A stretch of 31,208 nt of DNA from a virus. Positions 876 through 29,051 of this stretch are shown here, piece by piece; the stretch's first letter is position 1; every line of letters begins with the position of its first letter. Location of the stretch: IMG/VR virus record IMGVR_UViG_3300046692_000159, positions 1 to 31,208 of that record. One strand, written 5' to 3'. The notes beneath the pieces are model-generated. The model worked only from the letters and a program-made list of their open reading frames with translations, ran no database searches and was not told where the DNA came from. A program made the position numbers and the translations under genes.

Positions 876-2036
876 CTACCGCCCCACTTCCGGCCGTTCT
901 CTGAACGCTCCAGACCGCACATTCGTTTCCGCTTCAAACCGGAGGGGAGCAAACCAACTGGGAGCATACTGTCGCGCTATGCCTTGGAAGCGGATTTCGA
1001 TAAATCGGTAAGAGAGTTCTGCCGAAATGGTGATTAGAATAATTAAGGTAATTAATGCAATGGCGACATTTCTCACCGAAACGTCGAGCCCGCATGTCCG
1101 CGACATTATTTCCCTAGTCACCAATATTAATGGCAGGTGACATAAGTACACCGAGTAAGAGCGCTCGCCGATCCAAACTAACGGTTTCGACGCCTTAAAT
1201 TTAGAGAAAATGTTTTCACCCAATGTCGATGCTAGGCACAGCCACGCGCCCACAGCGATTGCAGGAAGCGAAAAGGGTTGCGGCAGAGAAGTGGGCGCAC
1301 TCACACAAATCAATACACCGCAAACGAATAGTATTAATGAAATTCCTTGATGTTGAGAACGCTTCATTAGCGGGGTTGTCTTTTCCAACGCTAAACCGGT
1401 CAATGCACCTAGCGTAAACGCTTGAAGGCGAAACGCCCAAACATAAGAAAAGCTTGGTCCTGGCAGAAATGCCATAAACAAGCCCACAGCTAGCATTACC
1501 GCTAATGCCCGGTGCCTACCAACAATACAGATCAGCGTCGTGAGAAGGGCGTAAAGTTGCCATTCGAGTGACAATGACCAAGTGACACCATTGAAGTCAG
1601 CGCTGCCACAGGCCCCAAATCCAGCCTGAACGCAGTTTACCCAGTAAGCGTTAGATATCCCCAAAAAAGCAGTGGCCGCACCGATAGCGACCTTCGTGGG
1701 ATCTGCGCCTTGCACGGAGCTAGTGAAAAATGAAACTCCGATTGAAAAAATCCCCCAAAAGACCAACGCTGGGAAGAGTCTCGCTACTCGTCGCGCCCAA
1801 AATCCAGAGACTGCATGTTTTATGGAACTAGTGCCGAGATCCCGCAGGAATGTCCGGTAGATTAAGAACCCAGATATTGCGAAAAATATATCAACCCCAG
1901 GCCAAAAAGAGAAATGTTCAAAAAGCCTCGCATAAGATTCTGGGGTCGGCAGCCTTGATCGGTAGTGCTGCATTAGCACGAGTAGGATCGCAACAGCACG
2001 CAGGCATTGTATGTCGTTATTTTTTTTAGAAACCAT
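876..2036 (-). CDS. Acyltransferase family 3 (OafA/YrhL-like) integral membrane protein
   Basis: A 386-residue polytopic protein. The N-terminus has the family hallmark: an Arg in QCLRAVAI followed by a hydrophobic helix ending in LMQHYRS, the R-x10-H active-site signature, then FWPGVDIFFAISGFLIY, the second conserved segment. About ten hydrophobic helices follow to near residue 350. Family members transfer acetyl or similar groups onto surface sugars such as O-antigen or other glycans. It lies on the same strand as, and just after, the phage lysis genes, is lower in GC than them, and has a possible promoter of its own at 2068 to 2073. This fits a lysogenic-conversion gene that changes the host surface and could block superinfection. 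The 3' end reaches the unassigned region near the left end. The exact sugar acceptor cannot be inferred. Confidence 0.88.
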   Translation of the reverse strand: MVSKKNNDIQCLRAVAILLVLMQHYRSRLPTPESYARLFEHFSFWPGVDIFFAISGFLIYRTFLRDLGTSSIKHAVSGFWARRVARLFPALVFWGIFSIGVSFFTSSVQGADPTKVAIGAATAFLGISNAYWVNCVQAGFGACGSADFNGVTWSLSLEWQLYALLTTLICIVGRHRALAVMLAVGLFMAFLPGPSFSYVWAFRLQAFTLGALTGLALEKTTPLMKRSQHQGISLILFVCGVLICVSAPTSLPQPFSLPAIAVGAWLCLASTLGENIFSKFKASKPLVWIGERSYSVYLCHLPLILVTREIMSRTCGLDVSVRNVAIALITLIILITISAELSYRFIEIRFQGIARQYAPSWFAPLRFEAETNVRSGAFRERPEVGR

Positions 2037-25550: not shown

Positions 25551-26054
25551 TCAGCCGTCCACCTTACCGTCGAGCCAATGCCTCCCATCGGGAAGCGTCA
25601 ATTCGACAGTAGGCACGGGACACCCCGGCAGACAAGTTGTAGAGCGGATGTTATCTGCGTCCTGCAATCTTTTCAAGATGGCTCGCAGATTCTTTTCCGC
25701 GCGCGCTATCACCAGCGACACGTGCGGACCGCGTACGCCCTTCAAGTGGCGCCGTATTTGATCGGCCGGCCACTGGTGGACATGGATGAACTTGAGGGCC
25801 TGTCGGTCGTTGAAGTCGCCCAAGTGGCGCCACGCCGCCTCAATGATCCAGCCGTCCAGGTGATCGGCCGCCACCAGGGGGCGCACAGGCTTGGTCCGCT
25901 CCTCCAGTTGCTCCTTTGCCGGCGCTGGCTCGGACAGGCGCAGGGCCACGTACCAACGCGCCCAGGTAGCGCAGCAACCCGCCGTTGCGCTCTCGCCGCG
26001 TCCACCGCGCACCACGCGCCGCCAGTTGTCCATCCGTGCTTCAAACTCTTTCAT
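25551..26054 (-). CDS. Putative late antiterminator, Q-like
   Basis: The start is the ATG at 26054 (MKEFEARMDNWRR), seven bases after an AAGGA ribosome site and overlapping the stop of the preceding small ORF in an ATGA. The 167-residue product opens with a MDNWRRVVRGG helix, then CCATWARWYVAL, and its core (residues 65 to 130, with DGWIIEAAWRHLGDF, QALKFIHVHQWPADQIRRHL and VSLVIARAEKNLRAIL) follows the pattern of phage Q-type antiterminators and other sigma-region-4-like regulators: a helix-turn-helix-like part and a final helix of the RAEKNLR type. It lies after the replication gene and before the late genes, as Q does in lambda, and the late genes are split by several terminators. Direct homology cannot be confirmed here. 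Confidence 0.5.
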   Translation of the reverse strand: MKEFEARMDNWRRVVRGGRGESATAGCCATWARWYVALRLSEPAPAKEQLEERTKPVRPLVAADHLDGWIIEAAWRHLGDFNDRQALKFIHVHQWPADQIRRHLKGVRGPHVSLVIARAEKNLRAILKRLQDADNIRSTTCLPGCPVPTVELTLPDGRHWLDGKVDG

Positions 26055-26464
26055 CGATATTCCTTGGTTCGTCCAACCCGGAAAAGGTTGGTCAGAAGGT
26101 TGGACGTCTGGAACCCGCATGGTTGCTGGGTTTGCCAACCTCCTAACCTACCCAACCTATTTTCAAGTTTTATAGAAAACGGAAAACAAGAAAACGCTGC
26201 ACTCGCGCACGTATACGTGTGCGTGCGCGCCGCACGCGGGCGGGCGTTTTGGTTGGCGAGGTTGGGAGGTTGGCGGAGCCTGTAACCATGCGGGTTACAG
26301 CCGTCCAACCTAAATAATTGAAGGTTGGACGAGTTGGCCAACCTGGTCGGTTTTGCAGCACGACGAACTGACGATGCAGCCTTTTCCGCCCGCGCATTCT
26401 GCGCACACGATCCCTGGCCGATCCCCAGCAGTATGCCGGTGAAACTATTAATTTGGAAGGCCAT
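26051..26464 (-). CDS. Small ORF containing the candidate origin repeats
   Basis: The ATG at 26464 (MAFQINSFTGILLGIGQG) stands five bases after a perfect AAGGAGG Shine-Dalgarno inside the 3' end of the primase-helicase gene, and the stop overlaps the start of the Q-like gene (ATGA). Both facts argue for translation of this 137-residue ORF. Residues 1 to 45 look like an ordinary small protein (AQNARAEKAASSVRRAAKPTRL). From about residue 48 the sequence mirrors the two 60-bp inverted repeats and is of odd composition (DGCNPHGYRLRQPPNLANQ, later RLGRLGGWQTQQP), so the coding sequence seems to have been extended by, or lives within, a repeat element. No function is recognised. It may simply couple translation through the region to the downstream regulator. 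Confidence 0.5.
   Translation of the reverse strand: MAFQINSFTGILLGIGQGSCAQNARAEKAASSVRRAAKPTRLANSSNLQLFRLDGCNPHGYRLRQPPNLANQNARPRAARTHTYTCASAAFSCFPFSIKLENRLGRLGGWQTQQPCGFQTSNLLTNLFRVGRTKEYR
26098..26157 (+). repeat. Left arm of a 60-bp imperfect inverted repeat (candidate origin)
   Basis: Begins with GGTTGGACG and ends with CCAACC. It matches the reverse complement of 26251 to 26310 without gaps at about 50 of 60 positions; the best block is AACCCGCATGGTT. It is also rich in GGTTGG/CCAACC hexamers. Confidence 0.85.
26171..26234. other. AT-rich tract followed by alternating GC palindrome between the repeat arms
   Basis: The spacer between the two 60-bp arms holds an A-rich stretch (AGAAAACGGAAAACAAGAAAA) region at about 26174 to 26194 and then CACGTATACGTG, a perfect 12-base palindrome at about 26209 to 26220, extended by near-symmetric GCGC sequence. 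An AT-rich tract flanked by repeats is a usual origin layout. Confidence 0.45.
26251..26310 (-). repeat. Right arm of the 60-bp imperfect inverted repeat
   Basis: Reads, on the minus strand, the same 60-base unit as 26098 to 26157 with about 83 percent identity and no gaps. Additional GGTTGG/CCAACC hexamers continue to about 26343, directly downstream of the primase-helicase gene. Confidence 0.85.
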
Positions 26465-29051
26465 CGCTGCCTCCTTGTGAGGATGCCGCCGGGAGGGGCT
26501 CCGGACGCGTGTAGAAGCGCTCACGCGCGCCTCCCGTCTCGCGGTCCTTAATCCACCCCAACTTGCGCATAATCGCCGATATGCGCATCGTCTCGTTCCT
26601 GGCCGGCCCGAGCTTGGACATTTCATAGTGCAAGCACTTGACCAGCAACTCCCGCGCCGTGACGCGGTTGATCTTGCCCGCGATGACGGGCTTCCCGTCC
26701 GAGTCCAGCCCCTGCAGATACTCATAGATGCGGCCGTGCCACACGTCAGGGATCTCACGATCTTCCTGCTGCGAATCGATCAGGCGGCGCTGTTGCTCCG
26801 GGGTTGGCCACCACTTGACGCCAGCCTTCCAAAGCGCGACTGCCTCGCCGAACAGTTGGTCGCGGTCCCGCTCCAGGGCGGCGATATCGATGCGTCCAGT
26901 CACGACGGGCCAGAATCGCCTGTTGCCGGTCGTATCCTTGAAGTACTCGCCCTCGTTGGTGGTTGCGCTGAAGGCGCAGCGGCGCGGCACGTTCTTCATG
27001 CGGCGGCCGTACGGCTCGCGATACCGGTCAACGGTGCTGGACATAAACGCCTTGACGGCCGTCACCTCGGAGCGATTGAACTGCTCCAGCTCCGCGATCT
27101 CGTACAGCAGCACGCCCTGGATCGCGAGGAAGCCGTCCTTCTCGCCCATGCGGAAAGGAGTGTCTGCGAACCAGTCGCCCGCCAGGACTTTCAGCGCGGT
27201 GGACTTGCCCTGTCCCTGGCCACCCTCGAACACAGGCGCGTAGTCATGCTTGACGCCGGGGCGATAACCGCGCACGACCATGCCGGTGAAGAACATGGTG
27301 GCCACCAGTCTTAGGTATTCGGAATCCTCGCAGCCCCAGTAGGTAGACAGGGCAGTCGCCACGCGCGACTGGCCGTCCCACTCCGCGGCGCAGCGGTCCA
27401 TGTAATCCGTCACCGGATTGAACGCATGCATGCGGGCCGCTTGCGCCACGCCACGCTCGATATCGCCAATCGCTGCCAGAAGCAGACTGTGGTTCTGGGA
27501 CATGTAGACGCCCAGGCTGAAGTCGTCCGCCTCGGTCCACTCGCCCGACTCACTAGCCCACGGCAGCGGCTTGCGCTTGATCTGCAAGCCTGAGAACAGG
27601 TCGAGCCCGACCGCGCCAATCAGACGCTCGTCGTGCTGCATGACCGTGAAGACGTTCTCACGACATCCCTTGATGCCTCCATTGGAGGTTTGGATCAGCT
27701 TACTGCGTAAGTTGCGGCCATTCCCGCCACCGGCGCCAGCCCCACGTGGGATTGAAGCACTGGACGAGTCCTCCGGGTCTGGCACGTCCAGCCATGCCGG
27801 TATGTCGTCTTGGCCGGTTGCATCCGCCTCTGCGGCCATTGGGACCACAGCCGACTCGGCCTCGGACGGCTCGACCCGCAGGTGCGACAACCACGCAAGT
27901 ACGTCGGCGCTGGTCCCACCGCTCTGGATCAGATCCGCGACGTCCCATCCGTCAGGTACTTCGCCTGGCGCCGGAATGTCCACGAAGTAGACCGTGCAGC
28001 CTTGCGCGCGCAGGATCGCAGCCACCTTCTGCATGGCGTTCATGCCGGGCTGTTCGGCCTCGGGCATCAGCTCTCCCGATCGTTCGTGATTTTCCTTGTA
28101 GACCTTGCTATCGGCGTCGGCCCACAGAATTACTTCGCGGTCCCGTATCGCCGTCCAGTTGGCCTTGTCCACGGCTTTGCCTCCGCCCGGCCAGGAAACG
28201 AATTCCACTTCATCACCCAACAACTCATGGGCCGAATCGGTGCATTTCTCACCCTCCACGACGACAAGCGGGACCTGCAGACGATGCGGGCCGCGCAGGT
28301 ACAGTGGCCGTGGTTCAGGGAAGGCCATCCACCGCCAGTCGCGCGTGCCGGTTTCCGGGTTCTCGGCGTAGACGCACGGAAGTACTTCCTTGCCTTTGCC
28401 ATCCGAGCGCACGAAGCGGTAGATGACGCCTAGGAGCTTACCGTCAACGTCCCGGTATTCCCACGACGCCTCCGGCTTCCCACGCATCAGATGGGCCTTG
28501 GGATATGGCCCCGCATCATCGGGGACCGGCAGCATGGGCTTCCACGGCGTCCGAGTTTTTTTGTTGGCTGGTGCTTCTACCCCTTTGCCGGCTTGCGCAT
28601 GCGCAGGGTTTATGGGAGTTTTTGGCAAAAGCATGTCGGCGGCCGCCGCCTTTCCCCCTTCTCCGGCTTGCGCCGGCGCGCGGCCTGACGCCGCTTTAGG
28701 CATTGGGTGCGCGGGTTGGCGGGGAATCGGTGCAGAACGATCGGATTTGGTCAGCTCGGTGCCGAGCTGTTCTGCTAGGGCCGCGCAGGCGCGGCCAGGG
28801 GAAAGACCATGAATAAAACCGTAGAGCGAAATCAGATCACCGCCGGCTTCGCCGTCGGAAGAAAAATCGGACCAAACCCCGGCCTTGTCACCGGTCAAGC
28901 GCACGCGTAACGACTGGCCCGCTTCGCCATGCCGCGAGCCGACGCAGAATTCCACGCCGGATCGCACACCGTTCGGCAGCCACGCGCCAAGCAGAGTTTC
29001 TATGGAATCGAGTGCAGCTTTATTGACTCGTACGAAGTCGTCCAACGTCAC
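26448..29051 (-). CDS. Phage primase-helicase (TOPRIM plus VapE-type ATPase)
   Basis: An 867-residue replication protein. Residues 1 to 100 are a primase-like N-terminal domain (GVWSDFSSDGEAGGDLISLY). Residues 101 to 190 form a Pro/Ala/Lys linker. A TOPRIM-like domain spans about 260 to 375, with VVVEGEKCTD giving the conserved Glu and ILWADADS the DxD motif. Residues 400 to 450 are a second linker. The C-terminal VapE/superfamily-3-like ATPase covers 470 to 800: Walker A FEGGQGQGKST (Lys616), Walker B LLYEIAELE near 650 and the downstream CAFSATTNEGEYFKD sensor motif, then GNRRFWPV. The protein would prime and unwind DNA at a phage origin, probably the repeats just downstream. Its ATG overlaps the upstream gene stop (ATGA). 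Confidence 0.9.
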   Translation of the reverse strand: MTLDDFVRVNKAALDSIETLLGAWLPNGVRSGVEFCVGSRHGEAGQSLRVRLTGDKAGVWSDFSSDGEAGGDLISLYGFIHGLSPGRACAALAEQLGTELTKSDRSAPIPRQPAHPMPKAASGRAPAQAGEGGKAAAADMLLPKTPINPAHAQAGKGVEAPANKKTRTPWKPMLPVPDDAGPYPKAHLMRGKPEASWEYRDVDGKLLGVIYRFVRSDGKGKEVLPCVYAENPETGTRDWRWMAFPEPRPLYLRGPHRLQVPLVVVEGEKCTDSAHELLGDEVEFVSWPGGGKAVDKANWTAIRDREVILWADADSKVYKENHERSGELMPEAEQPGMNAMQKVAAILRAQGCTVYFVDIPAPGEVPDGWDVADLIQSGGTSADVLAWLSHLRVEPSEAESAVVPMAAEADATGQDDIPAWLDVPDPEDSSSASIPRGAGAGGGNGRNLRSKLIQTSNGGIKGCRENVFTVMQHDERLIGAVGLDLFSGLQIKRKPLPWASESGEWTEADDFSLGVYMSQNHSLLLAAIGDIERGVAQAARMHAFNPVTDYMDRCAAEWDGQSRVATALSTYWGCEDSEYLRLVATMFFTGMVVRGYRPGVKHDYAPVFEGGQGQGKSTALKVLAGDWFADTPFRMGEKDGFLAIQGVLLYEIAELEQFNRSEVTAVKAFMSSTVDRYREPYGRRMKNVPRRCAFSATTNEGEYFKDTTGNRRFWPVVTGRIDIAALERDRDQLFGEAVALWKAGVKWWPTPEQQRRLIDSQQEDREIPDVWHGRIYEYLQGLDSDGKPVIAGKINRVTARELLVKCLHYEMSKLGPARNETMRISAIMRKLGWIKDRETGGARERFYTRPEPLPAASSQGGSDGLPN

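Follow-up and report, generated by a model that had tools for sequence, protein, structure and literature searches.

A candidate PICI/SaPI-type replication origin within a conserved open frame behind vapE in a temperate phage

Does the repeat array directly behind a phage primase-helicase gene act as a replication origin, and why does an open reading frame run through the whole of it? The question is raised by a virus record of 31,208 nt (IMG/VR record IMGVR_UViG_3300046692_000159, positions 1 to 31,208), referred to here over its full length as the window. Terminase, portal, major capsid, tape-measure and tail genes are encoded (PHROGs), and a gene for a CII-like regulator is also present. 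The window is a temperate phage and not a satellite, since the genes for its structure and packaging are all its own; a PICI element itself would be without such a set. Near one terminus (876-2036, minus strand), a gene for a putative O-antigen acetyltransferase (phrog_3333, phrog_6705) is likely a surface-modifying accessory gene.

The explanation favoured here, at a probability of roughly 0.6, is that the element behind the primase-helicase gene is a replication origin of the PICI/SaPI type, carried by a temperate phage and kept within a stop-free frame that is coupled to its neighbours. The new part of this is the frame and not the origin type. The features on which the argument draws are as follows.

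26448-29051, minus strand: gene for a primase-helicase of the VapE type (867 aa), the presumed initiator that binds the origin (PF05272, E 7e-74; phrog_1313 helicase; PriRep1, 7pds, as best structural match)
26470-26476, minus strand: Shine–Dalgarno sequence AAGGAGG of the open frame, read from the sequence; a Shine–Dalgarno sequence precedes the start in most relatives
26051-26464, minus strand: open frame of 137 codons (the "corridor"), overlapping the end of vapE and the start of the next gene; open in relatives, with no amino-acid constraint
26408-26417, minus strand: leader block CCAGGGATCG, from the alignment of relatives
26338-26343, plus strand: outer iteron CCAACC on the vapE-proximal side, from the hexamer count
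26323-26328, plus strand: outer iteron GGTTGG on the vapE-proximal side, from the hexamer count
26251-26311, minus strand: vapE-proximal arm with iterons GGTTGGACGG, GCCAACC, CCAACC and GCCAACC and the AACCCGCATGG block, from the inverted-repeat search and arm comparison
26286-26296, minus strand: replicase-independent motif AACCCGCATGG, copy 1, from the arm comparison and IMG/VR search
26158-26250, no strand: central spacer with a palindrome around CACGTATACGTG and, at about 26151-26190, an AT-rich tract, from the repeat search, relatives and composition
26097-26157, plus strand: distal arm, an inverted copy of the vapE-proximal arm, from the inverted-repeat search and arm comparison
26112-26122, plus strand: replicase-independent motif AACCCGCATGG, copy 2, inverted, from the arm comparison and IMG/VR search
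26073-26091, plus strand: outer distal iterons CCAACC (26073-26078) and GGTTGG (26086-26091), from the hexamer count
26051-26054, minus strand: ATGA overlap of the corridor stop TGA and the ATG of the next gene, from the sequence and relatives
25551-26054, minus strand: downstream gene, 167 aa, phrog_19609 (a PHROG of unknown function)

The iteron array and its tie to vapE

The two arms of the element (26097-26157 and 26251-26311) form an inverted repeat of 61 nt that is 84% complementary, with 93 nt between them. The best ungapped 60-nt inverted repeat within 26051-26464 matches at 50 of 60 positions, while 300 dinucleotide shuffles reach at most 34 of 60. The hexamer GGTTGG/CCAACC is present in 11 copies in 26073-26343 (shuffle maximum 3) and in 38 copies in the whole window. 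A preliminary description of this DNA had reported a 60-base inverted repeat of about 50 identities, some eleven hexamers and a palindrome in the spacer, and all three are upheld; the palindrome is CACGTATACGTG, and its core is retained by nearly all close relatives. The AT-rich tract reported between the arms is present but modest, with 68% AT at 26151-26190. Two iteron sets flank this AT-rich region as near-mirror images around 26158-26250. Within the spacer, an alternating purine/pyrimidine palindrome around CACGTATACG (26199-26228) is kept in nearly all close relatives with varying flanking bases, and is a possible melting or bending element. The CCAGGGATCG block, located directly behind the vapE stop, is not an iteron and is conserved into the distant relatives L012, L015 and L023.

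The inverted repeat is single-copy in the window, and a Janthinobacterium genome of 6.1 Mb with a relative in it likewise has it at a single site. A repeat dispersed away from replication genes, named in the preliminary description as an outcome that would speak against an origin, was thus not encountered in the one host genome checked, and the dispersed-repeat reading was rejected.

Relatives were gathered by protein search and by DNA motif, and the end of vapE was placed in 127 loci by tblastn. An array was scored where the commonest 7-mer occurred at least five times in the 480 nt behind vapE and no more than one of 60 shuffles equalled it. By this measure, an iteron array lies immediately 3′ of the initiator gene in 72 of 123 usable loci, as it does in the window. 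When the test was repeated along the flanks between -3400 and +2400 nt, 71 of 122 loci (58%) scored directly behind vapE and 0-2% at every other position. The array is therefore conserved next to vapE in other phages, a comparison which the preliminary description had proposed, and its placing of a candidate origin right after the primase-helicase gene is supported. The iterons vary by lineage (AGGTTGG, TATGGAA, GTTAGGA, CGTCCAA, ATGACCA and others), and distant VapE loci have a like layout built from unrelated iterons. A vapE match accompanies 22 of the 24 GGTTGGACGGCTGNAACCCGCATG loci; the two exceptions, L113 and L124, begin or end near the motif. In L018 and L020, homologs of the downstream gene reside behind another replication gene and the repeats there differ, so that the array follows the replication gene.

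The initiator belongs to the PriRep/VapE family. The AF2 model of the window VapE has a mean pLDDT of 79, and a Foldseek search with the whole model returns PriRep1 with dsDNA (7pds) as the top match (E 3e-29). The sequence profile of the protein also retrieves 7pds (E 2.5e-85). A winged-helix-like unit is predicted in the C-terminal part; Foldseek with this domain alone gave no significant match, and a comparison of iteron type with the C-terminal residues returned lineage-specific blocks and no clear code.

By analogy and from its conservation, the element at 26051-26464 is very probably a phage replication origin read by VapE. GC skew has no switch at the element and is uninformative as origin evidence. 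An array of this kind might instead be bound by another protein, as an operator of the late switch, a site for partition, or a cos/pac site that the terminase recognises for packaging. Iterons of inverted symmetry also serve these roles, and in the window the terminase genes are located approximately 2 kb downstream of the array. Such a reading is nevertheless improbable, as the array stays tied to the 3′ end of vapE despite differing downstream genes, its iteron type switches with the replication gene, and its layout matches published pri-rep origins. Very unlikely, too, is the proposal that the working part is a structured RNA or a cruciform built from both arms. The single-strand fold of the arms is very stable (z -11.8), but this is a consequence of the inverted iterons, and the variable positions of the arms hardly track each other (0.59 within, 0.47 between members). 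The structured-RNA reading was rejected, since the Rfam search gave no family match and the arms are without hairpin-like covariation. The conserved blocks of the arms are the hexamers and AACCCGCATGG, the middle of the arm varies without pairing, and CCAACC stands opposite CTAACC in some arms. For these reasons a role in protein binding, as judged from their conservation, suits the arms better than a hairpin does.

The open frame across the array

The preliminary description had also recognised an ORF with an AAGGAGG site and ATGA coupling to the next gene. It stands as a frame of 137 aa from 26464 to 26051, which starts with AAGGAGG-N5-ATG inside the last vapE codons. Among ten close relatives, the window included, no stop interrupts this frame between its overlap with vapE and the gene that follows, and the other two frames each hold several stops. 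Translation shows the corridor frame to be open also in L011, L012, L014, L015, L023 and L024, which have other iterons or other flanking DNA. Across 27 family members, distinct stop columns number 36, 3 and 40 in frames 0, 1 and 2, the corridor being the frame with 3. All three of these columns come from two members, L118 and L122, in which a different frame relative to vapE (frame 2) is used; it starts at an ATG that overlaps with the stop of vapE and is free of stops. In L118 the leader block is duplicated ahead of the origin, within about 200 nt of the vapE stop, and the corridor is still open.

Among 25 relatives of the GGTTGG family, no stop-making single-base change was observed in the corridor frame against 304 expected, the pairs not being independent. 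For the other two frames, the same non-independent pairs yield 261 against 211 expected and 444 against 263 expected. Of 14 origin families that have no detectable similarity in DNA to one another, 6 have the frame open, where 0.93 are expected from shuffles (P 3e-5); the antisense frames of these families are open in 2 against about 2.6 expected, with no excess. Beyond the large GGTTGG-linked family, 5 of 13 small families are open in the corridor frame. Of 51 dereplicated iteron loci, 34 have the corridor frame open, and each of the other five frames is open in 4 to 8. The stop forms ATGA or GTGA in 27 of 38 open cases, as against 68 of 343 stops of other frames.

The open frame is not universal. 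It is missing from 13 of the 51 dereplicated loci, including L013, L033, L040 and the Pseudomonas group, in which the origin is closed and sits behind a second small gene. All frames of the gap behind vapE contain stops in APSE-7 and in six Gram-positive records; for APSE-7 (L144), whose flank includes an annotated toxin cassette, the analysis covered the gap from vapE to the Q gene. On the VapE tree, open and closed states are clustered, with 9 changes. These closed origins indicate that translation is not required for this origin type, and the comparison presents the corridor as a lineage feature. In a sister VapE lineage (L027, Acidovorax phage Aval; L029, Variovorax phage VarioGold), an ORF of approximately 45-55 codons ending in HAPMT precedes the iterons, and its last residues, CGAVAG-S-HAPMT, look conserved.

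The conservation of the frame does not extend to the peptide. In the ORF, the differences at the three codon positions amount to 0.195/0.182/0.212; in the same phages they are 0.122/0.079/0.401 in vapE and 0.267/0.245/0.484 in the downstream gene. The excess at third positions is absent from the pre-iteron part of the ORF too. The dN/dS-like ratio of the ORF is 0.82, single-base gaps that offset one another displace the frame inside the spacer when the window is compared with other relatives, and the peptide has no family model match in PHROGs or Pfam. From this equal change at codon positions, the ratio, the spacer shifts and the missing family match, it is concluded on comparative grounds that conservation applies to the frame and not to the peptide. 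The GC content by codon position (0.51/0.54/0.57) had first suggested plain non-coding DNA, a reading that was overturned by the comparison with relatives.

Two other accounts of the frame have to be considered. The ORF could be the gene of a small protein with a function of its own, such as an accessory factor in replication or a regulator, and the iterons would merely overlap that gene, as in lambda gene O. It has a good Shine–Dalgarno sequence and start, overlaps both neighbours and is conserved as a frame in dozens of relatives, so that the start signals and conserved open frame of a small gene are in place. The purifying selection on amino acids that marks such a gene is not, as seen in the codon positions and the ratio of 0.82. 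The want of any family match, the spacer shifts, the frame switch in L118 and L122, and the unrelated peptides specified by the corridor in families with other iterons also count against a protein product, which is accordingly unlikely. A frame left open by chance or common descent, without selection, is very improbable. The DNA is GC-rich, which favours open frames, many of the loci are related, and 13 of 51 are closed; the shuffles correct for composition. Against this stand the 0 in-register stop-making changes where 304 were expected, the open frames in 6 of 14 unrelated families and the enrichment of ATGA/GTGA overlaps. Selection on a coupled open frame is preferred over both accounts.

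The ORF of the preliminary description is supported as an open frame under selection, without constraint on its amino acids. The further proposal of a small gene linking replication to late control is not established: the ORF shows no amino-acid constraint, the downstream phrog_19609 has no assigned function, and a Q-like antiterminator (phrog_79) is found behind the ORF in only one relative family, L083. The product of 25551-26054 is possibly a late regulator.

Proposed translation of the origin and a second motif

Translation of the corridor is itself deduced from its start signals and open frame, and it is probable from the sequence comparison that selection acts on translation as such. As the origin is positioned mid-operon, the early transcript would have to cross approximately 400 nt to reach the next gene, and this need to be crossed is proposed as the cause of the origin being kept inside a stop-free frame. 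Ribosomes would re-initiate at the end of vapE, traverse the iterons and pass to the next gene at the ATGA overlap. No promoter-like or terminator-like site was detected in a scan of 25900-26600.

RNA that is C-rich and G-poor is a property of Rho-utilisation sites. Owing to its CCAACC runs, the corridor RNA is of this kind, with a 78-nt mRNA window in which C minus G is 27%, within the top 0.03% of window positions. If untranslated, this RNA would be a likely Rho terminator. The most likely reason for the frame may be that ribosomes shield the rut-like iteron RNA from Rho and also link translation of the downstream gene to that of vapE; the Rho shield taken specifically is rated at a little under even odds. 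Ribosomes might also clear or time the origin. Transcription through the lambda origin activates that origin (PMC3985674), and passage across the window element might likewise affect initiation.

The arms hold a second type of sequence besides the hexamers. The motif AAACCCGCATGGATACTGG recurs within iteron arrays of unrelated sequence. Its 16-mer form AAACCCGCATGGATAC has at least 120 matches in IMG/VR, against 6 for the reversed 16-mer. Among the matches listed, a significant iteron array is present in 22 of 65 unrelated AAACCCGCATGGATAC flanks, the iterons being of many kinds, and the consensus extends to AAACCCGCATGGATACTGGGTTT. Arrays with AAACCCGCATGGATACTGGGTTT include those of L152, L154, L159, L174, L192, L197, L206, L207, L208 and L214, among others. 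Some motif flanks (L192, L214 and L208) follow genes for what would seem, on visual inspection, to be other replication proteins. AAACCCGCATGGATACTGGGTTT is a possible binding site of a shared factor. A literature search for AAACCCGCATGGATAC found none, which is weak evidence of novelty as most subscription journals were outside its scope. Taken as one proposal, an origin crossed by a frame that stays open and coupled at both ends through repeated iteron replacement, as a "ribosome corridor" kept for translation and not for its product, together with two AAACCCGCATGGATACTGG-like copies that would point to a shared factor, is somewhat favoured.

Meaning and comparison with known origins

The case separates two selections that are usually confounded, the frame being conserved, it would appear, as a path for ribosomes while the peptide drifts freely. 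It offers a clean and testable instance in which translation would bear on operon polarity or on an origin of replication, and it is a caution that conserved ORFs need not encode functional proteins. The position of the array also provides a simple rule for locating origins in VapE phages. A literature search for VapE with iterons found none; with most subscription journals outside its scope, this too is weak evidence of novelty.

The alpha protein of phage P4 is a primase-helicase initiator that reads iterons (ori1/crr), and the preliminary description had likened the placement to that of P4-like systems. An origin-like array after the primase-helicase gene is indeed present, but its close published parallel is the PICI/SaPI origin instead. 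In that origin, two sets of iterons surround an AT-rich centre directly 3′ of the initiator gene (PMC6092414, PMC7581432), and SaPI Rep recognises it through its C-terminal domain, apparently as two hexamers (PMC7581432). By inference from SaPI Rep, the window initiator would bind the GGTTGG iterons via its C-terminal domain, probably as two opposed hexamers, the spacer would be opened and replication would start. The iteron layout 3′ of the initiator is the same in both, and the initiators are of the same structural family (PriRep1, 7pds). The layout has been said to be unique to phage satellites and is found here in full phages; the window element differs in its stop-free coupled frame and in belonging to a phage that is complete, with genes for terminase, portal, capsid and tail.

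The lambda origin also has its iterons in translated DNA of the early operon (PMC7466680, PMC3985674), and the window element resembles lambda gene O in having iterons within translatable DNA of an early operon. The frame in lambda is the initiator itself, whereas in the window the iterons start past the vapE stop and the overlapping frame is separate, behind the initiator gene and without amino-acid constraint. The Cch2 helicase of SCCmec binds direct repeats downstream of its own gene via its C-terminal domain (PMC7581432); the position of the repeats is alike, but that origin is intergenic, with only three iterons and a helicase of a different subfamily. The VapE phages of Gram-positive hosts and APSE-7 share the order of vapE followed by repeats in an intergenic gap, and differ in that the gap is stopped in every frame, as an ordinary untranslated origin.
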